Shown: positions 239-16,856 of the stretch, one piece after another
How positions within the stretch are numbered: position 1 is the stretch's first letter
Layout of the letters: every line of letters begins with the position of its first letter
Virus record (IMG/VR): IMGVR_UViG_3300022213_000016
Span: 1 to 40,377 of that record
From: a virus
Length of the DNA: 40,377 nt
Reading direction: 5' to 3' (one strand)
The notes under the pieces: generated by a model
Databases searched by the model: none
What the model was told of the DNA's origin: nothing
Seen by the model: only the letters and a program-made list of their open reading frames with translations
Made by a program: the position numbers and the translations under genes

Positions 239-1666
239 TCAATACTCCACGGTCTGGTTTGTCTTGGCCGTACTGTCTAACTTGTAAATCGTAGACTCTC
301 GATACTCTTGTCCGTTGTACCAGGCTTTCCCTGGACCACGAAAGGCATTGAGTGAGAAGGCACTTGTGTTCACTGACGGCACTGCATAGATCCAGTACTG
401 CGACTCGGCTTCAAAGATATTCCCGACGATCTGCCATCCGCCAAAGGCATCGTTACCAGGCTCGTTCGACTTATCGATGTAGAGACCAACTTCTCCCCCA
501 CGAGAAATGTTGTTACTAAACACGCTCGTCTCTGTACTGTCGTTTGCAAGTTTGTAGTTACGGATGTTGTCGAACGACGTGTTCCCAGAAATGATACAGG
601 CCCCGCCGTATCCAGTCCGCTCTTCTATCCCGTTATTGCCGGAGGCATTGTTTGCGGTGTAGTGCCTGTGTCCAAATACTGTGTTATTCAGGATGCGACA
701 CCCAACGGTTCTGTTCTGACTATTCCCCCACACTTCGATCCCGTCTGATTCGTTTTCATACACGACGTTCCCTTGGATGGTGATATAGGGAGACATCTCG
801 CTCCCAATCCCGTAGGACTCACCCAGCATGGGAAAGGCCAGCCGTGAGTTGTAATAGGAGATGTTCTCGCGAATGATGACGTTTGCAGCCATGTGGCTGT
901 AGATCCCATCTCCGTTTGCAAAGGTGCGACAGCGGCTAATCACGACATGTTGAATCAGATATGGGTCCGTGGCTGTCCCGTCTAGGGACACGCCCCCGCG
1001 TCTGTTTCCATGCGCGACACACTTATCGATCGTGATATGGTGCGTATTCGGTATGGACGAGTTCTGCACTCGAATCCCATGTCCGTAGTTATTACGTGAG
1101 ATCGCGCCTACCGACGTAATGTAGCTGCTTCCCCCTGCAATGAAGAGCCCGTGTCCACGTGTGGCCCCTGGTGTTGGTGACGACTCGGTGTTTGACTGTG
1201 TCACGGTTGAGTACATCTGAATATGTGTTACACTCCTCGTGACAAGCTGTGCGCCATACAACCCCGTATTGGATGTGGGGCCTGTAATCGACACGTTCCG
1301 GATCACGAGGTAGTGACTGTCTTGAATCAAGAACCCGTAGGGCGTTGTGCCGGTGAGTGTCACCGTGGCAGGTGTCCCTCCTGGGCATGACCAGTCATAG
1401 GTAATCGGAAGAGAACTTGTTCCCGCACGATTATGCAGCTCAACAGGAGGCTGCAACGGTCCGCACAAAAAGACAGTATCTCCTGGTGCGGGTGTGCACG
1501 ACGGGTCCGTCAAGCCTTGACATGCATTGGATGCACTCGACCCCGATCCGTTGCCTGAATAGACTTGGGCGACATACAGGTTTGCAGCCAGAGTGAGTGA
1601 TGGAAGACTCAACCCACATAAGACTACCGTACTAATTCTTTGGAGCACTAACCGTAGCAAATACAC
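239..1666 (-). CDS. Secreted right-handed parallel beta-helix protein
   Basis: About 475 residues, late operon. The body is a run of repeats such as 'ITIDKCVAHGN', 'VVISRCRTFANG', 'VIIRENISYYN', 'ITIQGNVVYEN', 'RILNNTVFGH' and 'IISGNTSFDN', the coil signature of pectate-lyase-type right-handed beta-helices (roughly residues 100-430). Such folds occur in tailspikes, depolymerases and bacterial surface proteins. The frame is open to an ATG at 1795, but that part overlaps the 98-aa gene. I prefer GTG at 1666 (GGGGG five bases upstream), with TTG 1660 and GTG 1648 as alternatives. All keep a clear signal peptide: LQRISTVVLCGLSLPSLTLAA followed by NLYVAQ. An export signal is unusual for a phage structural protein. 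No catalytic motif is obvious. Confidence 0.8.
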   Translation of the reverse strand: MYLLRLVLQRISTVVLCGLSLPSLTLAANLYVAQVYSGNGSGSSASNACQGLTDPSCTPAPGDTVFLCGPLQPPVELHNRAGTSSLPITYDWSCPGGTPATVTLTGTTPYGFLIQDSHYLVIRNVSITGPTSNTGLYGAQLVTRSVTHIQMYSTVTQSNTESSPTPGATRGHGLFIAGGSSYITSVGAISRNNYGHGIRVQNSSIPNTHHITIDKCVAHGNRRGGVSLDGTATDPYLIQHVVISRCRTFANGDGIYSHMAANVIIRENISYYNSRLAFPMLGESYGIGSEMSPYITIQGNVVYENESDGIEVWGNSQNRTVGCRILNNTVFGHRHYTANNASGNNGIEERTGYGGACIISGNTSFDNIRNYKLANDSTETSVFSNNISRGGEVGLYIDKSNEPGNDAFGGWQIVGNIFEAESQYWIYAVPSVNTSAFSLNAFRGPGKAWYNGQEYRESTIYKLDSTAKTNQTVEY

Positions 1667-1928
1667 GAACACCCCCAGTTGTGCTAATCCACCAATCTGA
1701 CTTCCGAGAGATTGCATCAAGCTTGACTGTGTACCATCCCACCGGAACAGTCGTGCTAATGATCTGCACGGGTGACGCCCCTGAAGGGTTGTCACTAATT
1801 TCTACAATCTGCGTCGTTGAGGCGACGTTGAATATGAGTGTGCCTAAGATCGCTCCTGGGCCTGATTTCGTTAACTGCGAATTGGCACTGCCCAAAGCTG
1901 TGCCTGGTGCAACGGTAATTAAGTGCAT
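1632..1928 (-). CDS. Small beta-rich late protein, possible virion or fibre-associated
   Basis: A 98-aa protein starting at ATG 1928 with a good ribosome site (AAAGGGAG, four bases before the ATG). It is rich in Thr, Ser, Val and Ile with no charged clusters, and its strand pattern ('ILGTLIFNVASTTQIVEISDN', 'VGWYTVKLDAISRK', 'GVRVFATVSAPK') suggests a compact beta-sandwich like small head or tail decoration proteins. Its end overlaps the beta-helix gene by 35 bases, so the two are probably co-translated. No family recognised. Confidence 0.7.
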   Translation of the reverse strand: MHLITVAPGTALGSANSQLTKSGPGAILGTLIFNVASTTQIVEISDNPSGASPVQIISTTVPVGWYTVKLDAISRKSDWWISTTGGVRVFATVSAPKN

Positions 1929-2093
1929 GATGCTCCCTTTCTATTTTCTATGGCCGTTTTTAATACGATGTAAAAAATGGAATACTTGTTCACTGCTCTA
2001 GACGCACATGGACCTTGCTCGTTTTTAACCCCCACCCCCTTGATCTACGTATAAACAACTAAGGGGACCCTTTGCTTAATGAAAAATACTTAG

Positions 2094-2130
2094 TACGTAG
2101 TAGTACTGTACGTAGAAACGAGTTACGTAG
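2094..2130. repeat. TACGTAG direct repeats, 15-bp period
   Basis: Three exact copies of TACGTAG start at 2094, 2109 and 2124, exactly 15 bp apart. The palindromic core TACGTA also occurs at 2046-2051, and TACGTG at 2152-2157. A further TACGTAG lies at 3165-3171, near the start of the late operon. Regular spacing in non-coding DNA suggests protein-binding iterons. No known protein motif is assigned. Confidence 0.75.
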
Positions 2131-2167
2131 TTACAACTAGGTGGGCACATCTACGTGGAAACAGAAG

Positions 2168-2291
2168 CACTAGTAATACACATAGTCTATGCCCCCTCAC
2201 TAGTAAGACTTTACACCGTGGATTGGTCACTAGTAATACATTGCATCTAACTAGTAACTAGCTCCACGTTGTTACGCTAGTTTAGTAATAC
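2168..2291. repeat. TAGTAA / ACTAGTAA iteron-like repeats
   Basis: TAGTAA starts at 2171, 2201, 2231, 2252 and 2283 (spacings 30, 30, 21 and 31 bp, close to whole helical turns). The first four are ACTAGTAA, and 2168-2180 and 2228-2240 share the 13-mer CACTAGTAATACA. An inverted copy (GTATTACTA, 2302-2310) follows. The same-face phasing suggests cooperative binding of a replication initiator, small terminase or regulator. Confidence 0.8.
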
Positions 2292-2298
2292 TCGTTAT

Positions 2299-2340
2299 CT
2301 AGTATTACTAGTTATATATTATATTAATATATAATACTAG
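2299..2340. repeat. AT-rich inverted repeat next to the iterons
   Basis: CTAGTATTA (2299-2307) and TAATACTAG (2332-2340) are perfect inverted arms around 24 bases made almost only of A and T, which include the 12-bp palindrome TATATTAATATA (2320-2331). An AT-rich, easily melted element beside iterons is typical of phage and plasmid origins. A similar element occurs at 7079-7107. Confidence 0.7.
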
Positions 2341-2357
2341 GGCCGGAATAGTAGCTG

Positions 2358-2462
2358 TTAGTCCTTGTGCCGATCGTTAAACGTGTCGATTCGATGCTGT
2401 ATCTCACCAATCACGATAGCTAACAAGGCGACTGCCATGATCGTCCAGAATATGCTATCCAT
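2358..2462 (-). CDS. Short single-pass membrane peptide
   Basis: A 34-codon frame: MDSIFWTIMAVALLAIVIGEI is one hydrophobic helix and the rest (QHRIDTFNDRHKD) is polar, giving an N-out or N-in single-pass topology. The ribosome site is weak (AAG at seven bases). It sits between the terS-like gene and the repeat region, in the same direction. Supported by composition and position only. Confidence 0.45.
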   Translation of the reverse strand: MDSIFWTIMAVALLAIVIGEIQHRIDTFNDRHKD

Positions 2463-2549
2463 TGTCTTAAACATCAGACATAATACCTTTCTAGTAGTTT
2501 GTCATACAATCGAGCAAATAATAAGACAGCAAGTAGTAGTAAATGCTCC

Positions 2550-2954
2550 TCAACTGAGTTCAGCATTGGTCGTAATCTCCTCAGGCTTGGGAGTGATATT
2601 CTTGGGGTCTTTCATTCCCTTTGTGGCGAATGCTGGTAACTTGACAACGGCCTTGATTGTAACCTTAGGTGCCTCTTGTTTCTTGACTCCAACAAGACCT
2701 AGGTTAATTGCTTGATCGATTGCCTTGCCTTGTGTGGCATGATCCACCATAGGCTTGGTATACACGATCGTTCCCTTATAGTTAAACACCTTAACCTCTG
2801 TGGCCTGCATCCGCTTGACCGTCTTATCAAAGACCTTACGGAGCAATTGTGCTCTGTCTTCCTTCGTGATACCCGCTCTTGCGAATATCTCTTCGTTGAT
2901 ATCTGGGACTGTGGGGAGGTTTCTGACTGTGTTATCTTTTCGTGCCTTGCTCAT
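2550..2954 (-). CDS. Small terminase-like protein
   Basis: A 134-aa protein. The N-terminal third is helical and basic ('ITKEDRAQLLRKVFDKTVKRMQATEVKVFNY'). It is followed by 'GTIVYTKPMVDHATQGKAIDQAINLGLVGVKKQEAP', which matches the general small-terminase pattern of a short beta-hairpin, then 'VDH..R..A...A..L.G'. The tail is Pro/Lys-rich. Its place at the head of the late operon fits; terL lies about 3.7 kb downstream on the circle. The start ATG 2954 is six bases from the preceding gene's stop. TerS would recognise the viral DNA and load TerL; the neighbouring repeats could be its target. The call rests on pattern recall and is not certain. Confidence 0.55.
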   Translation of the reverse strand: MSKARKDNTVRNLPTVPDINEEIFARAGITKEDRAQLLRKVFDKTVKRMQATEVKVFNYKGTIVYTKPMVDHATQGKAIDQAINLGLVGVKKQEAPKVTIKAVVKLPAFATKGMKDPKNITPKPEEITTNAELS

Positions 2955-2957
2955 ATC

Positions 2958-3152
2958 TTAGGCCTCACTCATGAAAACACATTGCAGTTTGTAGACTGTA
3001 CCCTTTGGGTAGGTATACTCCATGTCTTGCTGTATTCTGTCTCGATCAAGAATACACTCGTTATGAGCATTGACGCCAGTATATGTATTCAGCTGGTGCG
3101 TATGAGACACGCCAGTAGGTGCCGATATCAGAACCAAGAATAAGTACCACAT
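2958..3152 (-). CDS. Small exported late protein
   Basis: A 64-aa protein with a signal peptide (MWYLFLVLISAPTGVSHT) followed by a short domain with two cysteines ('NECILDRDRIQQDMEYTYPKGTVYKLQCV'), which could form a disulphide in the periplasm. Small exported proteins of this style are common and uncharacterised in phages. It is the first gene of the leftward operon, with GAGG nine bases before the ATG. Confidence 0.6.
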   Translation of the reverse strand: MWYLFLVLISAPTGVSHTHQLNTYTGVNAHNECILDRDRIQQDMEYTYPKGTVYKLQCVFMSEA

Positions 3153-3257
3153 AATAAGGCCTCATACGTAGATTTTAGGGTATCTCATAAGATATAAGAC
3201 GGCAAACTAGCCTTTTGTCTCACATAGGTCTAACCTGTTGATTTTATTATATGAAAA

Positions 3258-3304
3258 AATATGTGGCTATCGTACTTGACAAGTCAAACTGTAGCTGGTA
3301 GAGT
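3258..3304. promoter_or_regulatory. Divergent sigma70-type promoter pair
   Basis: TTGACA (3276-3281), a 17-base spacer and TAGAGT (3299-3304) point right, to the early genes. On the other strand TTGACT (3287-3282), an 18-base spacer and CATATT (3263-3258) point left, to the late operon. The two -35 boxes form an inverted repeat (TTGAC-AA-GTCAA), so the two promoters would compete, or one bound regulator could control both. The -10 boxes match consensus at only 4 of 6 positions. Confidence 0.5.
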
Positions 3305-3338
3305 AGCCATTGACATGAGAGTGTCGTAAGAAAGGTAG

Positions 3339-3395
3339 GTGAGTTATGGTGACCATGTTTGACGGAAAGACTAAGTTGAACATGGTCCTACTCAC
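3339..3395 (+). promoter_or_regulatory. Hairpin in the early-operon leader
   Basis: GACCATGTT (3351-3359) pairs with AACATGGTC (3379-3387), and GTGAG (3339-3343) pairs with CTCAC (3391-3395) outside it, leaving a 19-base loop. The structure ends nine bases before the first ribosome site and could control translation or stability of the early transcript, or be an operator dyad. Confidence 0.45.
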
Positions 3396-3413
3396 TCTTA
3401 CATGGAGAGAATT

Positions 3414-4142: not shown

Positions 4143-4143
4143 C

Positions 4144-4314: not shown

Positions 4315-4316
4315 CC

Positions 4317-4925: not shown

Positions 4926-4946
4926 CCTGTAACCAAGGAGTCAACC

Positions 4947-6854: not shown

Positions 6855-7082
6855 ATGCCAAATCAGTTACCAGAAACACAAGAAGAAATGGAATGGTTAA
6901 AGCGGAGATTCTTTAACCTAATGTGCTTCAGATTGGGTGGTGAAGTTACCGTGACACAGGCAGAACTGGAAGACGTTACACGGTTTGTAGAACGAACACA
7001 GATACTTTTGCTCCAACATCCTGATAAGCCAAACGAATTCTTGCTTAAGACGATACGAAGAAAGGGACCAGGAGAAACCTAG
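6855..7082 (+). CDS. Small helical early protein, unknown
   Basis: 75 residues, GAGGAG eight bases upstream. Mostly helix ('TQEEMEWLKRRFFNLMCFRLGG', 'TQAELEDVTRFVERTQILLLQH'). It is the last gene before an AT-rich hairpin and the sigma-like gene; its stop lies in the hairpin's left arm. No family recognised. Confidence 0.6.
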   Translation: MPNQLPETQEEMEWLKRRFFNLMCFRLGGEVTVTQAELEDVTRFVERTQILLLQHPDKPNEFLLKTIRRKGPGET

Positions 7083-7170
7083 TATTATATTATATATATT
7101 ATACTAGTATAACTAGTACTATATCACGTTGTATCTAGTTCGTAACGACAGTGAAGAACTAGAACTAGTA
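7079..7170. promoter_or_regulatory. AT-rich hairpin plus ACTAGTA repeats upstream of the sigma-like gene
   Basis: CTAGTAT (7079-7085) and ATACTAG (7101-7107) flank an almost pure AT core, much like the element at 2299-2340. ACTAGTA follows at 7103, 7112 and 7164. The region is a 105-base gap in an otherwise gapless operon, so it probably holds a promoter or operator for the sigma-like gene, or a second target of whatever binds the 2168-2291 array. Confidence 0.55.
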
Positions 7171-7187
7171 GAACGGGGGGGATTCAC

Positions 7188-7838
7188 ATGCAGCAAAGGG
7201 AATTCAAACAACTAGTGCGCCAGAGTATCACGAAGCTAAGGCAACAAGTAAGCAAGACTGGTATTGCCTATGATGATTGCCAGGATATTCTGGCTACTGT
7301 GTTTGATAGAGCGTACCGCAAGAAAGCCTATACTAGGCTATCGAAGGCTAAGGCCTTCTCATACTTGGCGAGTCGCGTCTACTTTGCTGCACATGAATTC
7401 TTGCGACAAGAACAAAATAAGAAAACAAGAGAGTGTTTCTTACCAGACGATACCGAGAGTCCCTTGATCCGCTTTGTTGAAGAACATACCGTTCCGGTAA
7501 CAGAGTGTCCGTTTTGTTTCCAAGAAACCCTAAACGCGCTAGGCACGTGTAGTGCCTGTCATACTGCCTGTCCATCGTATGCTGTGCTCCATCGTGGAAC
7601 ATACTCGATTGAAACTGTAAGCCTAGCCTTGGACGAAGACGTAATGCAGAAGACAGACATCAATCAAGCCATAGAAAGCTTGAACCCGATGGAGCAGAAG
7701 GTCGTTAAAGCCTGCATCATGGGCAATGAAAGTCTCGAATCCTTTGCCCAAATTGAAGCGCTGAATAGGAAGACACTCTGGAGAATTTGGGTAAAAGCCC
7801 GTGAAAAGCTTACACAGAAATTAGCAGAATATGCCTGA
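7188..7838 (+). CDS. Sigma-factor-like protein with inserted zinc ribbon
   Basis: 216 residues. Residues 25-75 ('AYDDCQDILATVFDRAYRKK...AFSYLASRVYFAAHEFLRQE') follow the sigma70/ECF region 2 pattern. Residues 157-213 ('DINQAIESLNPMEQKVVKACIMGNESLESFAQIEALNRKTLWRIWVKAREKL') follow the region 4 helix-turn-helix pattern. Between them sit C107-x2-C110 and C121-x2-C124, a zinc-ribbon insert. It would redirect host RNA polymerase to phage promoters; no phage RNA polymerase is seen in the genome. The start has an unusual seven-G ribosome site (7175-7181). It could instead be a sigma-derived replication or regulatory factor. Family assignment is by pattern only. Confidence 0.65.
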   Translation: MQQREFKQLVRQSITKLRQQVSKTGIAYDDCQDILATVFDRAYRKKAYTRLSKAKAFSYLASRVYFAAHEFLRQEQNKKTRECFLPDDTESPLIRFVEEHTVPVTECPFCFQETLNALGTCSACHTACPSYAVLHRGTYSIETVSLALDEDVMQKTDINQAIESLNPMEQKVVKACIMGNESLESFAQIEALNRKTLWRIWVKAREKLTQKLAEYA

Positions 7839-7884
7839 TTGGTAAAAATAACACAGTTTTCTCCCTTGTATAACAAGTAGTTAG

Positions 7885-7914
7885 AGGCCTGAGACAAACG
7901 CATGTTTCAGGCCT
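7885..7914 (+). terminator. Hairpin after the sigma-like gene, possible terminator
   Basis: AGGCCTG and CAGGCCT arms (outer limits 7885-7914) enclose a second small stem (AAAC/GTTT). Only three T residues follow, so termination would be partial. It lies in the 102-base gap before the primase gene and may set the ratio of sigma-like to replication mRNA. Confidence 0.5.
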
Positions 7915-7940
7915 TTAACTCTATACAGGGGGGGAAAACT

Positions 7941-8627
7941 ATGAGTTATGAACATGAGCGGTATACCTCACGTGAGAAGAATACAGCATTCAATACGGTA
8001 TGGCCTGCAGTAGAATGCGGTGAGACTGCAGACAACGAACTACGCCACTATCTTCGCTCTAGACGTTTAGACTTCGAGACGGCCTATCTTGCTGGTTGGT
8101 ATCCATCGGTAATAAACAATTGTCTTCGCCTTGTAATACCCTGTAAGTCTCTCAATCCTAAACATGCGTACTACCAAGCCAGAGCCTTAGACAAGAGCAT
8201 CCGTCTTCGCTACGTCTCTCCTTCTGGCCCTAGGCTCGGCGCTTTGTGTATTGTCGATCCTGTCTTATTTGACTGGGACGATACGCTATCTCCCTCTGTC
8301 ACGGCGATTGTAGAGGGTCCCATGTGCGCCCTGGCTCTTGCCTCTTTGGGAATTCCAGCTATTGCCTTAATGGGTATCAGTCCAGAGCCTAGCGCATGTT
8401 CGCACCTTGTTTCTATTCTTAAGTCTCGCCACCACGATGCAGCTATCTTGCTAGACAATGAAGACGAAGCACAAGCCAGTGCTTCAAATCTTGCTGTCTT
8501 TCTAGCAGGGAACGGAATTATCAACCACGTCTTCTTGTTAAAAAGCAAAGACGTTGCCGATTCTTCAGACAAGGAACGCAAGAAAATAGCAGGAGACATT
8601 CTACAATGGCAAAGGAAGTCAAGGTAG
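7941..8627 (+). CDS. TOPRIM-domain DNA primase-like protein
   Basis: 228 residues from ATG 7941; the site is a seven-G run (7928-7934), so the open frame to 7902 is not used. 'LRLVIPCKSLNPKHAYYQARALD...RYVSP' is the core seen in phage and DnaG primases. 'VTAIVEGPMCALALASLGIPAIALMG' supplies the TOPRIM Glu, and 'DAAILLDNEDEAQASASNLAVFL' the DxDxA-type metal site. I see no N-terminal zinc-binding domain or helicase domain. It would prime DNA synthesis with the polymerase (overlaps its start by 22 bases) and the DnaB-like helicase. Confidence 0.8.
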   Translation: MSYEHERYTSREKNTAFNTVWPAVECGETADNELRHYLRSRRLDFETAYLAGWYPSVINNCLRLVIPCKSLNPKHAYYQARALDKSIRLRYVSPSGPRLGALCIVDPVLFDWDDTLSPSVTAIVEGPMCALALASLGIPAIALMGISPEPSACSHLVSILKSRHHDAAILLDNEDEAQASASNLAVFLAGNGIINHVFLLKSKDVADSSDKERKKIAGDILQWQRKSR

Positions 8628-11116
8628 TTAATAACAAGTTTGGTACTGTAGCTGAGTGCTCAGAGAACGCCAAGCTATCGCGTAAGGCTTGCCAGGAATG
8701 CGGATTGGCTAATACCTGCAATGAACCTTTCTTACGTCCGTATCTTCCCTTGAATTGGACTAGCGAATATTTATTTATTGTCGAGGTATCTAGCCAAGGC
8801 GAAGCAAACTACCCTAGGCGTGGCGTGTTCTTGTCAGAATCAGAAGGCAAGGTATTAGGTCGCGTTCTCTCAAGGGTTGGTCTGAACAAGGACCAAGTGG
8901 CTTTCTACCCTGTGCTCCGTTGCCGTCCGAACCTATCCGGCTCTAAGAAAGCTAAGATGCACTCTCTTAGGGCTTGCCGTCCGTTTCTCTTGGATGCACT
9001 TAGAGAGGCTGAAGCAAAACATATCTTGCTATGTGGCGAAGCCTGTGTACGTGCGTTCACGAACTCAGGAAAGTCTAGCTCGATCAATACCACACGTGGA
9101 CGTGAGCTATCACTAGACAACTACAAAGCCTACGCCACAGTGTCACTCAAGAGCCTTGTTGCAGACCCTCATGCTTCAGCAAGATTTACTGAAGACTTGC
9201 AACGGTTCAACCGACCGCTCTTGAAGTATCCAGGGATTCTACCTAGTGTATCTAAAAAGATACAGTCAAGTGTTGCACAAAAAACACAGTACCTCGGCTT
9301 CGATACCGAATTCAGTCCGGACCTTGCGCCGATTACCCTAGGAATCGCCACAGAGGCCAACGCCCTGGGCGTAGGCATTGAGAAAAGTGCTCAGGCCCTA
9401 CCTTACCTTCAGGATTCCATAATCGTAGGCCACAACGTCACTGTGGATGTCGAGAGTTTGATAAGACTTCACTCCAAAACGTTGGACAAAGCCTTGAACA
9501 GGTGGTTACAGGGTGATCGTCTACGAGACACAAGCCTACTGGCTAGGTTGGCGGACGAGAACAGAGGTAAGGGCGGGTACAAGCTGGAGAGTCTCGCGAC
9601 CAGTCTCCTCAACGTCAAGGACTGGAAGGGACCTACTGAGGCACTGGGTACCGATTCGACAAAGTGGCCGAAGCATCTCCGCGACGAACGCTGTCGGTTA
9701 GATGCGTGGGCAACACTTCAGATTTATCGAGCACTCGAACCAGACGTTGAAGGCCCCGCTAGACTCTCACATAAGATAGCCATGACCTTGCGCCGCTTTT
9801 ATTGGACTGGGGTGTACATCTCGAAGAAGAACTACCAGACCATGAAAGTGCAAGTCGAGAAAGAACGAGCGGCAGCACTCGGAGACCTCACACAATTTGC
9901 AAAGAAGTTTGGACTTAAGGATTTCTCTCCGACAAAAGACGATCACCTTAGAGATTACGTCTATGGAGAGAACGGAGTAGGGTTGCGGGTCGGCAAACTA
10001 ACTAAGGGCGGCTTGCCCACTGTGTCTGTCAAGACCTTAAAAGAATTCAAAGACCGGCCCGCAATCTCTGCCCTGATTCAGTTTTCTAAATACGACAAGC
10101 TACTCTCCACGTACTGCGAGAGTCTTGCCAAGAAGTTCCAGCCAGTCAAGGATGGTATCTGGATTCCAGTTATCATTAATCCATTGGCAGCGAAGACAGG
10201 TAGGCGATCGAGCGCCGCACCAAACTTTCAGAACTGGCCGGTGGCTGTCCGCAAGATCATCACGTCACGTTGGCAGAACGGAGTCATCGCCGACAACGAC
10301 TACAGCAAGCTTGAGCCTATCTTAGGTGGATGGGTCACAGGAGAACCCAAGCTGACCGATTACTTTGTGAAGCACTCAAACGGGTACATCAAGATCGGCG
10401 AAGACTTCTTTCAAACTTCAGTAGACAAGAACAGCGACCAGTACAAGGCGATGAAGTCCCTCGTGTTGGCGATTCTCTACAACAAAAAGAAATGGAGTCT
10501 TGCCGAGGATCTGTGGGTCAACTACGGAGTCAAGCTGAATACAAACTATGACGACCACATCGAAGAATCCGGCAAGCTCTTGGATAAGTTTCTTAAGCTG
10601 TTCCCGCGTGTGAAGAAGTACCACGAAACTACTGAAGACCTGGTCTTAACGGAAGGAGTAATCTATAATGCCCTAGGCCAAGCCAGAAGGTTGCCGCTAC
10701 CAATCGAACCACAGCGTTCAGACAAGTTAGCCTATAAGATCTACATGAAGTACAAAGCCCACGTGATCAATCAGGCTATCAACTACCGCATTCAGAGTCT
10801 TGCAAGCTATGTCACTGGGTGTGCTGCTATCGATCTTGAGGCTGCATTCTTACGACACTGGAAGTGGGACTACCTGCCCTATCAGCAAGCCTTAATGGAA
10901 AAACGTTGGCCCCGCATTCCGTTGATCTGCATCGAAGTCCATGACGACCTGGTGCAGGACATTCCACCAGAGCACGTCAAGAAAGCCCACGACATTACGC
11001 ATGAGATCATGCAGTGTCCTCCAAGTCTGAAGGCTGTGCTTCCAGAACTGTTTGACTCCAATGTCACGTTGACTGTAGACACGAATACGGGTCCGACCTG
11101 GGGGTTAAAATCATGA
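8606..11116 (+). CDS. polA: DNA polymerase, UDG-like domain + 3'-5' exonuclease + family A polymerase
   Basis: 836 residues. Residues 25-200 resemble family 4 uracil-DNA glycosylase, with C29, C32, C106 and C124 placed as its Fe-S ligands; the GEAPG and HP catalytic motifs are absent (VSSQGEA and SLKS instead). This N-terminal layout is known from phage SPO1 polymerase. Residues 228-380 are a DnaQ-like exonuclease (D233/E235, N277/D281, D366). Residues 390-836 are family A: motif A D565-Y-S with E570; motif B K617 with Leu621 at the Klenow 762 position and Tyr625; motif C H779-D780-D781, where Glu is usual in the last place. It is the replicative polymerase, acting with the primase and helicase. 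Overlaps primase (22 bases) and the next gene (ATGA). Confidence 0.92.
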   Translation: MAKEVKVVNNKFGTVAECSENAKLSRKACQECGLANTCNEPFLRPYLPLNWTSEYLFIVEVSSQGEANYPRRGVFLSESEGKVLGRVLSRVGLNKDQVAFYPVLRCRPNLSGSKKAKMHSLRACRPFLLDALREAEAKHILLCGEACVRAFTNSGKSSSINTTRGRELSLDNYKAYATVSLKSLVADPHASARFTEDLQRFNRPLLKYPGILPSVSKKIQSSVAQKTQYLGFDTEFSPDLAPITLGIATEANALGVGIEKSAQALPYLQDSIIVGHNVTVDVESLIRLHSKTLDKALNRWLQGDRLRDTSLLARLADENRGKGGYKLESLATSLLNVKDWKGPTEALGTDSTKWPKHLRDERCRLDAWATLQIYRALEPDVEGPARLSHKIAMTLRRFYWTGVYISKKNYQTMKVQVEKERAAALGDLTQFAKKFGLKDFSPTKDDHLRDYVYGENGVGLRVGKLTKGGLPTVSVKTLKEFKDRPAISALIQFSKYDKLLSTYCESLAKKFQPVKDGIWIPVIINPLAAKTGRRSSAAPNFQNWPVAVRKIITSRWQNGVIADNDYSKLEPILGGWVTGEPKLTDYFVKHSNGYIKIGEDFFQTSVDKNSDQYKAMKSLVLAILYNKKKWSLAEDLWVNYGVKLNTNYDDHIEESGKLLDKFLKLFPRVKKYHETTEDLVLTEGVIYNALGQARRLPLPIEPQRSDKLAYKIYMKYKAHVINQAINYRIQSLASYVTGCAAIDLEAAFLRHWKWDYLPYQQALMEKRWPRIPLICIEVHDDLVQDIPPEHVKKAHDITHEIMQCPPSLKAVLPELFDSNVTLTVDTNTGPTWGLKS

Positions 11117-11301
11117 GCTACTACTGGGACGATTACTTCAGATATCTAGACCAACGAAAGGAGAAAGAAGTTGAAGAAGAAATCCGGCTCCAAGACGGGA
11201 GCCAAATCAGTCTCGTCGGCCAAGACACATTCACGAGTCAGAACCAAGAAGGCGAACAAGATCTCACGGACCAAGATCAAGCCGACGAAGACGGTGGTTG
11301 A
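11113..11301 (+). CDS. Small acidic protein overlapping the next gene
   Basis: 62 residues; ATG overlaps the polymerase stop (ATGA). The N-terminus (MSYYWDDYFRYLDQRKEKEVEEE) looks protein-like, but the second half overlaps the 93-aa frame for 131 bases and is low in complexity (Q, D, E). It may be a short coupled gene, or only its first 17 codons may be used if ribosomes change frame at 11156-11170. Function unknown. Confidence 0.45.
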   Translation: MSYYWDDYFRYLDQRKEKEVEEEIRLQDGSQISLVGQDTFTSQNQEGEQDLTDQDQADEDGG

Positions 11302-11452
11302 ACAGACTGAACAGCAAGATGACTTTGACACGTTGCTTGCCGATGACGAACTTGTAGATAACTCTCCTGAGTCGGATGACGATTGCGGCCCCACAGACTA
11401 CCACGAGGAAGACTTCTTTTCAGACCTTGACGAGGAGGACGCTGATGTTTAA
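11171..11452 (+). CDS. Small protein with basic N-terminus and acidic C-terminus
   Basis: 93 residues, TTG start with AAAGGAG eight bases upstream. Residues 1-42 are very basic (Lys, Ser, Thr, Arg) and 45-93 very acidic ('DDFDTLLADDELVDNSPESDDD'), so it is probably disordered and could bind DNA or a basic partner. It ends eight bases inside the next gene. Unknown function; the unusual start makes it less certain than its neighbours. Confidence 0.55.
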   Translation: MKKKSGSKTGAKSVSSAKTHSRVRTKKANKISRTKIKPTKTVVEQTEQQDDFDTLLADDELVDNSPESDDDCGPTDYHEEDFFSDLDEEDADV

Positions 11453-11666
11453 AATTGCAGGTAAAAAAGGTAAGCACGAAATGGATCATGTGTTTGATGT
11501 GGACGTTGACAAGGATGGAGACTTGGTGCTTACCTGTAACGAGCAAAATATATTGTGGATCTGCAAACACGATGGATCTATTCACACGGCGTATGGTGTG
11601 GATAGCGAATATGTACCGGCTTTGAAGTTAACCAAGGATAACCGTGTGCACATTGAAAACCTGTAA
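11445..11666 (+). CDS. Small beta-rich protein, unknown
   Basis: 73 residues from ATG 11445, with GGAGG six bases upstream. The strand pattern ('HVFDVDVDKDGDLVLTCNEQNILWICKHDGSIHTAYGV') looks like part of a beta-propeller or small barrel. No family recognised. It sits between the polymerase block and a possible ssDNA-binding protein. Confidence 0.6.
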   Translation: MFKIAGKKGKHEMDHVFDVDVDKDGDLVLTCNEQNILWICKHDGSIHTAYGVDSEYVPALKLTKDNRVHIENL

Positions 11667-11686
11667 TTTTAACCGAAAGGATTAAT

Positions 11687-12115
11687 ATGAGCTGGGGAAA
11701 AAAGAAACGCGGTGGGAATGATGGTAAGTACCTCCGATTGACTGGGCTGTGGCAGAGCAAGAATAAAGAGAACCTGTACACAGGGAAACTTCGAGCTGAA
11801 GACGTGGAGAAGTTAGCCGCGAAGATCGAGGAAGCAGATGGGTCCGATATCGGGTTCTTCTTGTGGGTGAATGAGCAGGAGTCACGCAAGGACCCCCAGT
11901 TTACTTTGCAGTGTGCTGTCTCTGAGTCTGACGGGGGATTCTCCTCGAAGAAAAGGAACCGACGAGACGAAGAGGAACAAGAAGAGCAGGCAGAGGAGGA
12001 ACAAGAAGAGGATGAAGACGATAAGCCGAAGAAGTCTGGAGGAAAAGCTAAAGCTTCTGGTAAAGCTAGCACGACAAGTGGAAAGAGCAAAGGCAAGAAA
12101 AGGGACGACTGGTAA
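11687..12115 (+). CDS. Possible single-stranded DNA-binding protein
   Basis: 142 residues. Residues 14-80 ('KYLRLTGLWQSKNKENLYTGKL...IGFFLWVNEQESRKDPQFTLQCAVS') look like a compact beta-domain. Then a Glu/Asp-rich segment (95-112), a Lys/Ser-rich linker, and the extreme end RDDW, an acid-plus-aromatic tip like that of many SSBs. Position among replication genes fits an SSB, and no other SSB is visible. This is inference; the OB-fold is not proved. Confidence 0.5.
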   Translation: MSWGKKKRGGNDGKYLRLTGLWQSKNKENLYTGKLRAEDVEKLAAKIEEADGSDIGFFLWVNEQESRKDPQFTLQCAVSESDGGFSSKKRNRRDEEEQEEQAEEEQEEDEDDKPKKSGGKAKASGKASTTSGKSKGKKRDDW

Positions 12116-12128
12116 ATAAACTATTAGA

Positions 12129-12240
12129 TTGGGACATGGTAGAAGACAATCTACACCAGCGTGGAGCTGGAGACGGACAAGTTATAGAGGATAGACACCG
12201 GAACGCTCGTGAAATCCCTCTGGTTGTAGTCCTGTCCCGA
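12129..12240 (+). ncRNA. Candidate structured RNA in a packed operon
   Basis: An 8-bp closing helix is possible between 12129-12136 and 12233-12240 (one U-G pair). Inside are hairpins 12139-12143/12150-12154 (GTAGA/TCTAC), 12156-12160/12166-12170 (CCAGC/GCTGG) and 12186-12190/12217-12221 (AGAGG/CCTCT). It lies in one of the few gaps over 100 bases in the early array. It is not a tRNA, because there is no T-loop or acceptor end. A competing 36-codon frame occupies the same bases. Confidence 0.3.
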
Positions 12241-12246
12241 CCATAG
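12136..12246 (+). CDS. Possible 36-aa protein (alternative to the structured RNA)
   Basis: The frame ATG 12136 to TAG 12246 reads MVEDNLHQRGAGDGQVIEDR and onward. The same frame is open upstream to 12109 without a better start. No clear ribosome site precedes it, so it could only be made by coupling to the preceding gene. Either this or the folded RNA explains the gap; I cannot decide. Confidence 0.3.
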   Translation: MVEDNLHQRGAGDGQVIEDRHRNAREIPLVVVLSRP

Positions 12247-12254
12247 GAGATAAC

Positions 12255-12455
12255 ATGATTGATGCAGTCGGTAAGACAATTACGAAAACTAAGACGTGCA
12301 AGATTGCTGGCCTAGCCCTGAGTTCGTGGGCACAACCGTGGTTCTACGTCGGAAAGATTTCTAAACTTTCTGAGTCTGAGAACACGATCTACGTGCGTTC
12401 AGGTGGTGAAACATTTTATATGGACCCAGGCGACTGCGTGGTAATACATCCTTAA
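12255..12455 (+). CDS. Small beta-rich protein, unknown
   Basis: 66 residues, GGAG seven bases upstream of the ATG. Mostly strands ('TCKIAGLALSSWAQPWFYVGKISKLSESENTIYVRSGGETFYMDPGDCVVIHP'), resembling a small SH3-like barrel. Function unknown. Confidence 0.6.
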   Translation: MIDAVGKTITKTKTCKIAGLALSSWAQPWFYVGKISKLSESENTIYVRSGGETFYMDPGDCVVIHP

Positions 12456-12469
12456 TGTGCAGGAGCTTT

Positions 12470-12577
12470 ATGGCGGATACAGTTTTCACATTAGGCATCT
12501 TTATTCTAATCATACTGACTGTGGGTGAGCCCGACCTTCTTGATGCATTAACTTCTTATATTCAAAAGTGCAAGTAG
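12470..12577 (+). CDS. 35-aa single-pass membrane peptide
   Basis: ATG 12470 with a strong site (AGGAG, four bases). MADTVFTLGIFILIILTVGEPD is one transmembrane helix, followed by a short polar end. First of several tiny membrane proteins in the early array. Function unknown. Confidence 0.55.
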   Translation: MADTVFTLGIFILIILTVGEPDLLDALTSYIQKCK

Positions 12578-12584
12578 GAGAACT

Positions 12585-12698
12585 ATGGACAAGATCGTAA
12601 CTGGTTATCTGTATAGCGTGGGTGCAACGGCTGGCTTTGCTACGTGGTATTATGTAGCAGAGATTTTCTTTTACCTGATCGACCGACTCGTCTTCTGA
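12585..12698 (+). CDS. 37-aa membrane peptide
   Basis: ATG 12585 with AGGAG four bases upstream. Aromatic-rich hydrophobic peptide ('GYLYSVGATAGFATWYYVAEIFFYLIDRLVF') long enough for one membrane helix. The TGA overlaps the next ATG. Function unknown. Confidence 0.55.
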   Translation: MDKIVTGYLYSVGATAGFATWYYVAEIFFYLIDRLVF

Positions 12699-12940
12699 TG
12701 AACAAACATGATGTGCTGGCCCATATCTGGCAATTCATCGGCTATGTCGAAGATAGAATGGCAGCACCCAAGCTATTCGACAAAGACGTGATGCGTATCA
12801 AACTTGAACAAATCAAAGAGGTACTAACTAATGCTGACCCTGCCGAAGAATCTGAAAGAGGGAGTCACCCGAAACAAAAAGGCAGAGGCAAGCCTGATTC
12901 AAAAGACAAGGGAATGGCTCGAACACGACTCAAAAGATAG
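12698..12940 (+). CDS. Small helical protein overlapping the nuclease gene
   Basis: 80 residues from ATG 12698, coupled to the previous stop; no independent ribosome site. Residues 1-45 form amphipathic helices ('HDVLAHIWQFIGYVEDRM', 'MRIKLEQIKEVLTN'); the rest is Lys/Gly-rich and overlaps the nuclease frame by 110 bases. The overlap suggests only the N-terminal part is constrained by its own function. Unknown. Confidence 0.5.
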   Translation: MNKHDVLAHIWQFIGYVEDRMAAPKLFDKDVMRIKLEQIKEVLTNADPAEESERGSHPKQKGRGKPDSKDKGMARTRLKR

Positions 12941-13568
12941 GACGGGTATCCATGCCTCAGATCTCCTCGATCCTCGAAAGGCGTACTTCGATAAACGCTA
13001 TCCTCAAAAACTTACAGATAGACTCGTTGGTACGTTCTTTGTTGGTAAGACCCTCCATGCCTTCTTTCTTTCAGCCTTTACAGGTGCCAAGGGTACGGAC
13101 TGGAAGACAGATGGAGGAAGTCACGAGAACAAAAAGCTTGGCATCACCTGGAGTGCAGACTGGATCAAAGACGGAATCCCATACGAGTTCAAGACAAGTC
13201 GTTCTAAATACGAACAGTCGTTTTCAGATCTCAAGAGTTACTTGGAACAGTTGCTTATATACATGGTTGGAACCAAATCCACCACAGGACGGCTTATTAC
13301 TCTCATGTACAACCTCCCAGCAGCTAAAGGAGAGGGTTGGGGAAGCTATCCTCAGTATCGAGCATACGATGTTGAAGTCACTCCTAAAGAACTCAAGCAG
13401 TACGAAGCACAGCTACTTGACACAGCAAACCTTTTACGAGCTGCACTCAAGAAGAAATCGCACAAAGACCTACCCTTGTGTCGAGAGTTCAAGTGCATGG
13501 GGTGTCCACACATGGAGCGGTGCAAACCTGAAGGACGCTACGGCCTAAAGAGGTTTATGCCACGATGA
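12831..13568 (+). CDS. PD-(D/E)XK nuclease, Cas4/RecB-like with cysteine cluster
   Basis: 245 residues. 'TGIHASDLLDPRKAYF' is the entry motif of the RecB/Cas4 family. H76 (KTLH), D110 (WSADW) and E119-F-K121 make the PD-(D/E)XK site, followed by 'YLEQLLIYMVGT', the usual helix after the core. C217, C222, C225 and C231 near the end fit an Fe-S cluster, although Cas4 normally has one of its cysteines at the N-terminus. It would process DNA ends in replication or recombination, alongside endonuclease VII. Start ATG 12831 has GAGG eight bases upstream. No cas genes or CRISPR array are present. Confidence 0.85.
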   Translation: MLTLPKNLKEGVTRNKKAEASLIQKTREWLEHDSKDRTGIHASDLLDPRKAYFDKRYPQKLTDRLVGTFFVGKTLHAFFLSAFTGAKGTDWKTDGGSHENKKLGITWSADWIKDGIPYEFKTSRSKYEQSFSDLKSYLEQLLIYMVGTKSTTGRLITLMYNLPAAKGEGWGSYPQYRAYDVEVTPKELKQYEAQLLDTANLLRAALKKKSHKDLPLCREFKCMGCPHMERCKPEGRYGLKRFMPR

Positions 13569-13606
13569 AGTATGTACCAGACTACGCAAAGTATGGAGCC
13601 ATATGA
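13565..13606 (+). CDS. 13-codon linker frame between nuclease and helicase genes
   Basis: ATG overlaps the nuclease stop (ATGA) and the frame MKYVPDYAKYGAI ends in a TGA that overlaps the helicase ATG. It may have no product function and serve only to carry ribosomes from one gene to the next, since the helicase has its own GGAG. Low confidence as a gene. Confidence 0.25.
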   Translation: MKYVPDYAKYGAI

Positions 13607-14736
13607 AACGAAAGAAGGACGAGAGAGTACTCCCGCTTGGTCCGGTGCTGGAACAGGCTGTCGTCGGAGCCCTCGTCGCCGGTACGCTGAGCCTCAAGGG
13701 AGTCCGTAAAGAGGAACTATCCAAACCAGGACAGGCTGTCTACAAAGTTCTTCACGAGAATGAAGGAAAGCCTGTCAGTCTCAAGACCTTGAAGATCGCT
13801 GCATCTGAAGTTTATGGCATCGACAAGGCAGAGTTTAAAGAGTACCTTGACAACTTGATTTCCGACTCTGACATAGCTAGCGTCTTGCAAACGCTCCGAC
13901 GTAAACGCACCGTGAACCAGCTTGTCAATGAAGCCACGAATCAAATAGCCTCAGGTGACTACGACCTGTCGCCACTCAGTCACATTCTAGAGAACACTCA
14001 GGTAGAACGCAAGAAGCTAAGTCCGCTCGGCGATGATAAGAGTGAGATCAAGCATCCTCCGGCACTACCAATTAAGTCTTTACCTAGGCTCACGGCAGCC
14101 GTCGGCGGTGTATACGGAACGTGGATCATCGGAGGTACACCCAAAGCTGGAAAGAGTACGCTCACCACACAGATTGCGGTGTCGATCGCAAAGCGTTATA
14201 TGCCGTGTTTGTATTATGACTTTGAGTTAGGATATGACGTTGTCAGGGATAGGTTGTTAGCGGCTTTCGATGGAGATCGGGAGCAATACGACATCGCTGT
14301 CAAGAACTTCTACTTACGCAGGAGCATTTCGACACTCGAAGAAGACCTCGTAAGTATCGGGCAGCCCTGCTTGATCGTTGTCGATTCAATCCAAGATCTT
14401 CCAACATCCTCGCAGCACAACGTTGAAGACTTGGGAAGGTGGGTCAAGAGGTTGGACGCACTGAAACATCGAGGACATCATACCATCATGGTCTCGGAAG
14501 TCAATCGGTTCTCATACGGAACACCCACACCCAAGGGATACAAAGGTTCTGGAGAAATTGAGTACGCTGCTGATGTGGCAATCACGGCAGTGCTCCCTAA
14601 CGAAGAAGACCCCAGTACTGTAGATTTGTTTGTGACTGAGAACAGACACTTCCGGAAACGTGGCCTGGTTTGTCAGTTAGAACGAGTCAACAACTGGTGG
14701 TTCAAGGAGGCTGGCAATCATGGCGCTAGTAATTAA
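13603..14736 (+). CDS. DnaB-like replicative helicase
   Basis: 377 residues. Residues 10-115 resemble the helical DnaB N-terminal domain. The RecA-type motor follows: Walker A G178-TPKAGKST, catalytic Glu in 'YYDFELG' (E208), Walker B 'LIVVD' (D261), then 'GHHTIMVSEVNRF' and 'GSGEIEYAADVAI' matching DnaB motifs H3 and H4. It is shorter than cellular DnaB (about 470), as in other phage versions. It unwinds DNA at the fork for the primase and polymerase encoded upstream. Confidence 0.85.
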   Translation: MKRKKDERVLPLGPVLEQAVVGALVAGTLSLKGVRKEELSKPGQAVYKVLHENEGKPVSLKTLKIAASEVYGIDKAEFKEYLDNLISDSDIASVLQTLRRKRTVNQLVNEATNQIASGDYDLSPLSHILENTQVERKKLSPLGDDKSEIKHPPALPIKSLPRLTAAVGGVYGTWIIGGTPKAGKSTLTTQIAVSIAKRYMPCLYYDFELGYDVVRDRLLAAFDGDREQYDIAVKNFYLRRSISTLEEDLVSIGQPCLIVVDSIQDLPTSSQHNVEDLGRWVKRLDALKHRGHHTIMVSEVNRFSYGTPTPKGYKGSGEIEYAADVAITAVLPNEEDPSTVDLFVTENRHFRKRGLVCQLERVNNWWFKEAGNHGASN

Positions 14737-14905
14737 AGTGATGACGGCACTGATTCTGTTATTACTTCTGCTTGGTGTGTTCGTGACATTCTCAGCCTTG
14801 GCTGAAGAGACCTACAAGCTACAGCCTCAACAGTTTCGCTTCCAGCAACCACCCAGTCTTGATGTCAGACCAGATTACGGAGAACCGAAACCATGTCGGC
14901 AGTGA
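14720..14905 (+). CDS. Small exported protein
   Basis: 61 residues, AGGAGG ten bases upstream, start inside the helicase gene. MALVIKVMTALILLLLLLGVFVTFSALA is a signal peptide with a likely cut after ALA; the mature part is Gln/Pro-rich ('YKLQPQQFRFQQPPSLDVRPDYGEPKPC'). It resembles small outer-membrane spanin subunits in its proline content but lacks a lipobox cysteine, so I do not call it one. Confidence 0.6.
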   Translation: MALVIKVMTALILLLLLLGVFVTFSALAEETYKLQPQQFRFQQPPSLDVRPDYGEPKPCRQ

Positions 14906-15213
14906 AGAAAGAGAAAGACCCAAACGCAAAGAAAGCCGCCTACGTCAAGAGGAAGTACGGCCTAACATATGAAGCCTACGAAGCCATGCTCAAGAAGAAT
15001 GGAAACAAGTGTTGGATCTGTTCTCGTCCACCTAAGAAGCTAGCCCATAACATCGACCACGATCATAAGACGGGACAAGTTCGAGGGTTACTGTGTTTCT
15101 TCTGTAACAAGTTCCTGATTGGGAGACGGAGACGAGAACACGCTCACCTCTTCCGTAAGTCGGCAGAGTATCTTGAGTCAACCTACGATTGGAGGGACTA
15201 TGACGAAGAATAA
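14893..15213 (+). CDS. Recombination endonuclease VII
   Basis: 106 residues. 'YGLTYEAYEAML', C40-x2-C43, 'NIDHDHKTGQVRGLLC' and C68-x2-CN are the complete signature of the T4 gp49 (endonuclease VII) family: four cysteines bind zinc and the DHDH motif is the His-Me finger site. It resolves branched DNA before packaging and debranches replication intermediates. It overlaps its neighbours by 13-14 bases. Confidence 0.93.
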   Translation: MSAVKKEKDPNAKKAAYVKRKYGLTYEAYEAMLKKNGNKCWICSRPPKKLAHNIDHDHKTGQVRGLLCFFCNKFLIGRRRREHAHLFRKSAEYLESTYDWRDYDEE

Positions 15214-15361
15214 GTGTACCCACAATCACGGAATGATTGAGTTGTCTCATAATGTATGGGCATGTGATGAATGTGGGAAGCTTTTTGAACAAGTTAATCT
15301 ATGGAAGCCCGTGTCAGATAAAGAGTATGATAGGAGGAGGAGGAATGCCAAACAAGTCTGA
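15200..15361 (+). CDS. Small zinc-finger-like protein
   Basis: 53 residues from ATG 15200 with GGAGG four bases upstream. 'CTHNH...VWACDECGKLFEQ' supplies a C-x-H/C-x2-C metal site like a short zinc ribbon; the end is basic (YDRRRRNAKQV). It may be a small DNA- or RNA-binding accessory. Confidence 0.6.
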   Translation: MTKNKCTHNHGMIELSHNVWACDECGKLFEQVNLWKPVSDKEYDRRRRNAKQV

Positions 15362-15521
15362 AGCCCTGCACATAGCCCTACTTGATGCGAAGTTGGCGAA
15401 ACTAGAAGCGATTCAAGAGGAGATTCTTGTATATCTTAAAGTCGCGGTTAAAACAACATCGTATGGTCGTGATTACTACTTACGTTCATGGGAGGATAAT
15501 AGTGCCATACAAAAATCCTAG
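15345..15521 (+). CDS. Small helical protein, unknown
   Basis: 58 residues from ATG 15345, preceded by a repeated GGAGGAGGAGG site. A helical, possibly coiled-coil stretch ('HIALLDAKLAKLEAIQEEILVYLKVAVKTT') dominates. It overlaps both neighbours. Function unknown. Confidence 0.55.
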   Translation: MPNKSEALHIALLDAKLAKLEAIQEEILVYLKVAVKTTSYGRDYYLRSWEDNSAIQKS

Positions 15522-16374
15522 TGATGAAGCAGAGAGAAGCCGTCGCTACCGGCAGGCTCGTCGCGAGGAGCTTGGGACAAATGCTCCGCATGCTCAACTC
15601 GTCAAGCCTCTCAAGATCAAGGGTCCTGCCCACGGGCTTCAAGTCGCGGTAATTCCAGATTGCCAGGTTAAACCTGGTGTTCCGCTTGGTCACGTAGAGT
15701 GGTGTGGAAAGTACTTAGCTGCTAAACGACCAGACGTGGTGATTTGTGGTGGAGACTTCTCAGACTTACCGTCTCTTGGTACACATGACGTGCCAGGGAG
15801 CCGCAAGGTCGAAGGTCGGCGGTATAAAAAGGATATCGATGTCACACATAGAGCAATGGAGATGTTCCTGAATCCTATTCAGAAAGTATCTGGCTGGAAT
15901 CCTAGTCTACTATTCCTCTATGGAAACCACGAAGACCGGATCGAACGCGCCATTAACCGCGATCCAAAGCTTGAAGGGTTTATGTCGGTGGATGATTTGG
16001 GATATACGAGATACGGTTGGACGACGTTTCCTTTTCTACAACCTATCTCAATCAATGACGTAGCCTTTTGTCACTATTTTCCATCTGGAATTATGGGAAG
16101 ACCAATTACGACAGCCAAGGCAATTCTTACCAAGCTGCACATGTCGGCATTCGCTTTTCATCAGCAAGGACGAGACATTGCCTATTCTAAACGAGCAGAC
16201 GGGAAAGACTTGACGGCGATTATATCAGGATCGTTCTATCAGCATCACGAAGACTACCTCTCCCCGTTTACGAATCAGCATTGGCGTGGAATGTACGTCC
16301 TGCATGAAGTCAAAGACGGTAACTTCGATGAAATGGCGGTATCAATTAACTACCTAAAAAGGAAGTTTGCATAA
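15502..16374 (+). CDS. Calcineurin-like metallophosphoesterase
   Basis: 290 residues from GTG 15502, with GGGAGG seven bases upstream. The motif set is D53-C-Q55 (Gln where His is usual, a variant I recall from phage members), GGD85FSD, G141NHE and later His residues in 'FCHYFP' and 'FYQHHEDY'. It is predicted to bind two metals and hydrolyse phosphoester bonds; the substrate could be DNA ends, RNA or nucleotides. The first 40 residues are a separate basic segment ('DEAERSRRYRQARREEL'). Confidence 0.82.
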   Translation: MPYKNPSDEAERSRRYRQARREELGTNAPHAQLVKPLKIKGPAHGLQVAVIPDCQVKPGVPLGHVEWCGKYLAAKRPDVVICGGDFSDLPSLGTHDVPGSRKVEGRRYKKDIDVTHRAMEMFLNPIQKVSGWNPSLLFLYGNHEDRIERAINRDPKLEGFMSVDDLGYTRYGWTTFPFLQPISINDVAFCHYFPSGIMGRPITTAKAILTKLHMSAFAFHQQGRDIAYSKRADGKDLTAIISGSFYQHHEDYLSPFTNQHWRGMYVLHEVKDGNFDEMAVSINYLKRKFA

Positions 16375-16532
16375 TGAGTCTTCCTAGTTTACTGTTTGTA
16401 GTATTTCTTACGTTGAAGTTGACGAACTATATTGACTGGTCCTGGTGGTGGATAACATCTCCGTTGTGGATCGTGGCATGTATTTGGTTCGTGTGTACGA
16501 CACTATACACCATTGCGAAAGGGATCGAATAA
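16374..16532 (+). CDS. 52-aa two-helix membrane protein
   Basis: ATG 16374 overlaps the previous stop (TAATG). Two membrane helices (SLPSLLFVVFLTLKL and WWWITSPLWIVACIWFVC) separated by a short Trp-rich loop. The arrangement is like small phage proteins often labelled 'transmembrane Fragile-X-F-like'. Function unknown. Confidence 0.65.
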   Translation: MSLPSLLFVVFLTLKLTNYIDWSWWWITSPLWIVACIWFVCTTLYTIAKGIE

Positions 16533-16856
16533 ATGGCTAAGAAAAAACTTGAGACTCGTGAAGACAGAATGCTGGACGCGATCCGTGAATATGAGGAAGT
16601 CTCCGCTGAATTGAAACCACTAGCAGACAAGAAGGATGCGTTGTGGACTGAACTGAAAGAATTGATGGGGGCATCAGAAGAAAAGATCGTCCCTGGATTT
16701 GGAAAGGTTACCTACGGCTACGACAAGGACAAGCCAATACGAGAGATCGACTGGGATGTATTCAAAGAGGAACAGCCCAAGATTTACAAGAAGTACGTTG
16801 TAGAGGATACCAAGAAGGGGAGTCGCAGGCTTATTCTGAAGGGCATGGAGGAATGA
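16533..16856 (+). CDS. Small protein, possibly recombination-associated
   Basis: 107 residues starting directly after the previous stop. Helical N-terminus ('DAIREYEEVSAELKPLADKKDALWTELKELMG') followed by 'KIVPGFGKVTYGYDKDKPIREIDWDVFKEEQPKIYKKYVVEDTKKGSRRLIL', a pattern reminiscent of the small domain found beside or at the end of YqaJ-type phage exonucleases. Here it is a separate gene, near a Cas4/RecB-like nuclease. Inference only. Confidence 0.6.
   Translation: MAKKKLETREDRMLDAIREYEEVSAELKPLADKKDALWTELKELMGASEEKIVPGFGKVTYGYDKDKPIREIDWDVFKEEQPKIYKKYVVEDTKKGSRRLILKGMEE

Follow-up and report, generated by a model that had tools for sequence, protein, structure and literature searches.

In uncultured phages, it is very rare for an origin or an early/late control region to be located. 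The virus genome analyzed here, called the window throughout (a complete virus record, 40,377 bp long), offers a candidate for such a site: its largest non-coding gap carries evenly spaced short repeats beside an AT-rich inverted repeat, a locus that an earlier note on this DNA had put forward as a candidate replication origin or packaging site. We asked which explanation best fits the repeats, their neighbors, and their distribution among other phages.

Gene layout of the window

Bases 1 to 141 of the window recur at 40237 to 40377 with one mismatch, which indicates a circular assembly of ~40,236 bp (40.2 kb). From its length, we take this 141-bp overlap to be an assembler k-mer overlap and not a true terminal repeat. 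The structural proteins are of the podovirus (T7-supergroup) type (portal phrog_332, tail tubular protein phrog_376, and an internal virion protein), and a family-A-like DNA polymerase, a helicase, and a small primase are encoded for replication. No phage RNA polymerase was matched among the proteins scanned, which made up part of the ORFs. Late genes run leftward from 1928, through the circle, to ~19.6 kb, while early and replication genes run rightward starting at 3402. The gap that houses the repeats, element A, separates these two blocks (Table 1), and no ORF of at least 60 aa was found within 2002 to 2364.

Downstream of the array, the late strand encodes a right-handed beta-helix protein (NosD/Beta_helix; 239 to 1795), possibly a polysaccharide-degrading spike. 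The candidate early promoter listed in Table 1 lies in a region where the promoter count shows no excess over chance. No Rfam RNA family was found in the window or in the related contigs L126 to L128 described below, and positions 1900 to 5000 had no DNA-level relatives among phage records.

Table 1. Coordinates of the features discussed in the text
Feature	Coordinates	Strand	Remarks
First minus-strand (late) gene downstream of element A	1632..1928	-	
Largest non-coding gap between called genes	1929..2549		621 bp; houses element A; from the gap list
Outlying TACGTA box	2046..2051		
TACGTA lattice	2094..2129		Palindromic boxes begin at 2094, 2109, and 2124, every 15 bp exactly; the 9-bp spacers between them are unrelated
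Degenerate TACGTG box	2152..2157		
ACTAGT(AA) boxes	2169..2255		At 2169, 2199, 2229, 2250; first three in the 15-bp register of TACGTA
Inverted pair TAGTAATAC ... GTATTACTAG	2283..2311		Includes the ACTAGT box at 2307
AT-rich palindrome	2299..2340		25-bp A/T-only run (2312-2336); putative unwinding element
Candidate host sigma-70 early promoter	3276..3304	+	TTGACA-17-TAGAGT, extended -10
Element B	7079..7170	+	AT-rich stretch with 21-bp A/T-only run (7083-7103); ACTAGT at 7103, 7112, 7164
ECF-sigma-like protein gene	7188..7838	+	216 aa; heads the replication cluster and follows B immediately; candidate regulator
Replication module, colinear with G001	7902..16856	+	Primase, DNA polymerase, acidic 142-aa protein, PD-(D/E)XK nuclease, helicase, endonuclease VII, metallophosphoesterase, RecE-like fragment

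Two palindromic box types in element A

The repeats reported earlier were recovered at the same positions, TACGTAG at 2094, 2109, and 2124 with exact 15-bp steps and TAGTAA at 2171, 2201, 2231, 2252, and 2283 (steps of 30, 30, 21, and 31 bp). It is more apt to regard the TAGTAA sites as palindromic ACTAGT(AA) boxes, five in number when the one at 2307 is counted. What the array copies have in common is the palindromic core alone, TACGTA or ACTAGT(AA), and the spacers between the TACGTA boxes of the window agree at only 2 to 5 of 9 positions. The ACTAGT boxes at 2169, 2199, and 2229 are offset from the TACGTA boxes by multiples of 15 bp, so that both box types keep one register; this would be a 1-in-15 coincidence if the two were independent and is suggestive only.

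The repeats are real and far beyond chance. Shuffling yields 0.005 equally spaced triples of an exact 7-mer per genome; element A contains two independent sets within 150 bp. An 8-mer occurring four times in 140 bp was seen in none of 200 shuffled genomes, and local shuffles that kept the AT-richness reproduced the repeats in 1 of 2000 and 0 of 2000 cases.

The spacings had been described as all near whole helical turns, which is wrong for the 15-bp array (1.43 turns). Thirty base pairs correspond to 2.86 turns, and among the spacings only that of 21 bp amounts to two turns. For this reason we do not file element A with the plasmid-type iteron arrays, which are helically phased and bind monomers.

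Easily melted DNA and a second element upstream of a sigma-like gene

The AT-rich inverted repeat at the right end of element A is present as the earlier note had it, with a DNA fold of -6.6 kcal/mol (z = -2.8 versus dinucleotide shuffles). No GC stem with a T tract was scored there, and an intrinsic terminator was therefore rejected. The least stable 50-bp segment of the genome begins at 2287. When 50- and 100-bp segments are ranked by stability, element A and a second site some 4.8 kb away, element B, come last in the genome (46.2 and 46.4, compared to 54.7 for the next and a mean of 68.5), and the only two A/T-only runs of at least 21 bp in the genome lie one in each element. The GC-skew check suggested earlier did reveal a turning point nearby (detrended minimum at 2894), but it coincides with the divergence of transcription; because GC and AT skew follow gene orientation here, we do not count skew as evidence for an origin.

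Element B, which was absent from the earlier note, adjoins the ECF-sigma-like gene that heads the replication cluster. A fourth ACTAGT at 7211, inside the coding region, extends the element to 7079-7211, and nine of the ten ACTAGT sites in the genome sit in A or B. None of 100 shuffled genomes contained paired clusters of a palindromic 6-mer. Over ~100 bp, B resembles the reverse complement of A and has the same polarity toward its downstream gene: when A was read in the direction of the late genes and B in that of the gene at 7188, the two aligned with a score of 80, versus 41 ± 5.5 for shuffles (maximum 60, n = 1000). Without the AT-rich part the similarity is weak, being reached by 35 of 1000 shuffles, and since TACGTA boxes are absent from B, the two elements do not have a full box set in common.

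The protein encoded at 7188 to 7838 matched NCBIfam TIGR02937 (ECF sigma superfamily) over its whole length with an E value of 4.6e-8, which is below the curated cut-off. A low-confidence model of it (pLDDT 60) had ECF sigma factors as its best Foldseek matches, with a region-4 structure aligning at 1.4 Å over 60 columns. A putative zinc-finger insert with two CxxC motifs separates its halves (regions 2 and 4).

The lattice in distantly related phages

When 2.9 million viral contigs were scanned for exact TACGTA-N9-TACGTA-N9-TACGTA, nine records matched. By eye, four of these represent one apparently coding sequence, one more lies in apparent coding DNA, and two are of low complexity; the remaining two, contig L126 and the 51.7-kb genome G001 (L133/L144), are kin of the window. 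A looser pattern, ACTAGTAA-N-ACTAGTAA, was too unspecific and was dropped. L126 was also among six fragments found independently of the lattice by a portal scan of the viral contigs, while single-protein scans of these contigs with the DNA polymerase and DUF7178, a portal scan of bacterial genomes, and a literature search on TACGTAG phage repeats (judged by title) yielded nothing. The homology of the G001 replication genes was established only after the lattice scan had found this genome, so that a cis-acting lattice, traceable by exact pattern search over millions of contigs, led to distant kin that the first protein search had missed.

L126 carries TACGTA at 5, 20, 35, and 79, upstream of its terminase genes, and the related contig L127 carries two TACGTA at 15 bp (291 and 306); the terminase large subunit and portal of these contigs are 43% and 45% identical to those of the window. 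G001 has five TACGTA at 15 bp plus an outlier. Across the phages, the spacers agree at 1 to 6 of 9 positions, and the palindromic core alone is kept. The expectation in the earlier note that the repeats of an origin or packaging site would stay conserved while their flanks change thus held for the 15-bp TACGTA lattice in L126/L127 and G001. ACTAGT boxes are absent from L126 and L127 and from the array of G001.

This conservation bears on whether the repeats might be no more than a neutral minisatellite or an AT-rich patch that arose by chance. Tandem 15-bp TACGTAG repeats do exist in bacterial genomes, where 19 records contained three copies. These are mostly true tandem 15-mers with near-identical spacers and are not comparable to the phage arrays, in which the core alone persists. 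As the shuffle tests exclude chance and the lattice is conserved in kin, we regard a neutral origin of the repeats as very improbable.

G001 and the window have replication genes in common, with identities of 51% (polymerase), 40% (helicase), 60% (metallophosphoesterase), 51% (nuclease), 47% (endonuclease VII), and 33% (primase), and the sigma-like genes are 38% identical over the C-terminal half. The order of the cassette is the same in both (6855 to 16856 in the window, 3130 to 13126 in L144), and no further close relative of the polymerase turned up in a protein search of the same collection. The two genomes have no structural genes in common, and the G001 portal belongs to another family (phrog_1216). 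A cassette of this kind combined with unrelated morphogenesis genes clearly points to modular exchange. The G001 array is adjoined only by the second least stable 100-mer of its genome, and G001 has no second array. The ECF-sigma-like protein with a putative zinc-finger insert is likewise encoded in G001 (12413 to 13126 in L144), where it heads the replication cluster beside structural genes unrelated to those of the window.

Several further features of these contigs were recorded. Some 75 non-coding bases (TTCAGGGCACCTCAGGGTTTCTACC..., L126 361 to 440) are strictly conserved upstream of terminase in L126, L127, and L128 and had no Rfam match. Between the TACGTA lattice and the terminase genes, L126 140 to 197 holds the perfect palindrome GTTACCAAAAGGTAAC (inverted arms) twice, 29 bp apart, plus GTTACCAATTGG, which amounts to a second box type like the ACTAGT of the window. 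In G001 (L144), a 90-bp repeat (17691 to 17780 and 18030 to 18119, 81% identical) upstream of small leftward ORFs contains a minus-strand TTGACA-17-TACAGT and thus represents repeated host-type early promoters.

Box clusters with other motifs occur in other phages. In the more distant relative ctVRi840 (L130; portal 32% identical), a different motif, GCGGAAA/TTTCCGC, forms two clusters 6 kb apart (28475 to 28590 and 34551 to 34690); the one at the early/late junction lies beside the least stable DNA of the genome, and the other lies just before a helicase-like gene annotated repA. Vibrio phage VP2 (L168) has one dense GTGGACA/CACCGTG cluster in inverted arrangement at 39154 to 39299, between the early and late blocks where no genes are listed, without AT-rich DNA. 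Baldr has no comparable array at its early/late junctions.

Linkage to packaging and replication genes

Element A is found between the early and late gene blocks, the usual place for the ends of T7-like phages. It could accordingly be a packaging initiation region, that is, a pac site or a terminal-repeat processing site, with the lattice bound by the small terminase and comparable to the repeat arrays that adjoin the terminal repeats of T7. L126 and L127, whose terminase and portal are those of the window's type and whose lattice precedes the terminase genes, would fit this explanation if taken alone. The distribution of the lattice does not follow terminase and portal, however, as G001 has the lattice together with an unrelated portal and a terminase-like gene (by eye, on a weak match) ~7 kb away from it. 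Moreover, the early genes contain a partial duplicate of A. The small-terminase gene previously noted beside A, presumably 2550 to 2954, had no family match and did not align to the putative TerS of L126, and its assignment as a terminase small subunit was not confirmed. The 141-bp overlap, read as an assembly overlap, marks no physical ends. Given the G001 lattice and the unverified neighbor, packaging became the weaker half of the earlier proposal, and we consider it improbable.

The lattice travels with the replication/sigma module in G001 and with the structural module in L126, whose replication module lies off the contig. A lattice-binding protein supplied by the early module would explain both linkages.

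Replication origin or transcription control

The recurrence of the lattice in two distantly related phages, the easily melted DNA, and the partial second copy make it most likely that the region is a replication origin or an early/late control region rather than a product of chance. We tentatively prefer the first, with A as the main origin and B as a second, smaller one, after the paired plan of SPP1 or that of lambda. An origin, the other half of the earlier proposal, is the best single explanation because element A adjoins the least stable DNA, has a partial duplicate, and is linked to the replication module; these same facts partly fit transcription control. The anatomy consists of the boxes and their 15-bp register, the conservation in kin, the duplicate B, the melting minima, and the co-occurrence with replication genes in G001. 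A regular array of initiator-type boxes, as in origins of the lambda/SPP1 type, is present, and an easily melted AT-rich segment lies adjacent at both A and B. The paired box clusters of ctVRi840, one of them next to the least stable DNA of that genome, provide a comparable arrangement in favor of this reading. In operation, a phage-encoded dimeric DNA-binding protein would occupy the palindromic boxes, which are of both types in A and of the ACTAGT type in B, strain from the bound boxes would open the adjacent AT-rich palindrome, and the phage helicase, primase, and DNA polymerase, encoded just rightward, would be loaded there. No initiator family (O or gp38-like) was matched among the early proteins scanned; the sigma-like protein and unassigned, conserved small proteins are candidates for this role.

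Some observations speak against an origin. The 15-bp period lacks helical phase, ACTAGT is missing from the arrays of kin, G001 lacks a second array, and A and B are little alike once the AT-rich part is set aside. In every genome, moreover, the late genes are preceded by the lattice, and B lies before the sigma-like gene, which transcription control explains at least as well.

Under transcription control, the AT-rich parts and ACTAGT boxes of A and B would serve as sigma-dependent promoters or operators, and the TACGTA lattice would bind a regulator of the early/late switch; B would turn on the sigma/replication operon and A the late operon. The common polarity of the two elements (AT-rich part, then boxes, then gene), the position of B directly upstream of the sigma-like gene, the presence of both a sigma-like gene and the lattice in G001, and the placement of the lattice before the first late genes in L126 and G001 agree with this. 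That the phage encodes a sigma factor, as such promoters demand, is suggested by the below-cut-off family match and the low-confidence model; the window's sigma had no tblastn match in the phage collection. The late promoters of the phage 7-11 sigma factor are bipartite, GTAAtg-16-aCTA (PMC8948821), and their spacing, GTAA-N19-CTA, occurs five times in A and B versus 0.34 times in local shuffles. This hint is weakened by the facts that two of the five matches form one inverted repeat, that the directions are mixed, and that no spacing-specific enrichment was seen before other late genes or in G001; as an explanation of the boxes, the 7-11 consensus, the one examined, gives a weak hint, and another consensus may apply. 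The orientation of TACGTAG relative to the late genes also differs, being toward them in G001 and away from them in the window, and ~10 dimer sites over 200 bp plus a 25-bp A/T-only palindrome are more than a promoter needs. We judge transcription control to be a lesser but serious possibility. It is not exclusive of the origin reading, with which it is compatible. A bolder combination, which we hold to be a long shot, is a transferable module in which the two-sequence 15-bp lattice (TACGTA and ACTAGT in one register), linked to a sigma-polymerase-helicase cassette moving among phages whose structural genes are unrelated, would act as both origin and early/late switch under one phage protein, possibly the sigma-like one.

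Comparison with known systems

Terminal repeats of T7 are flanked by short repeats. Like these and the pac site of SPP1, the short repeats in the window and its kin lie near the early/late junction or the terminase genes (for pac, PMC6316719). They differ from both in that the lattice accompanies the replication module in a phage whose packaging genes are unrelated, and in that A is partly duplicated in the early region.

The phage-sigma-dependent late and middle promoters of phiEco32 and 7-11 are similar in that an ECF-like sigma is encoded and the element precedes the sigma and late genes. Those known are single promoters (PMC8948821), whereas the window has a palindrome lattice and does not reproduce the 7-11 consensus genome-wide.

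In lambda, the origin array is situated inside gene O. The array described here is non-coding, has two box types, and comes with no O homolog that we found. Its resemblance to the lambda origin lies in having AT-rich DNA next to an array of dyad-symmetric sites that would suit a dimer; lambda iterons are bound by O dimers (PMC5043065).

SPP1 oriL and oriR each consist of direct repeats plus an AT-rich unwinding element (PMC6316719). The window differs from SPP1 in its 6-bp palindromic boxes, the additional TACGTA lattice in A, a distance of ~4.8 kb between the elements compared to ~13 kb in SPP1, and a phage-encoded polymerase without a recognized gp38-like initiator or gp39-like loader. The likeness is that there are two separate sites, one located at the replication genes, and that in each an AT-rich region adjoins repeated boxes. 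If A and B are origins, the lattice offers a way to find origins in metagenomic phages, and the paired-origin plan known from SPP1 occurs in podovirus-like phages with a polymerase of their own as well.
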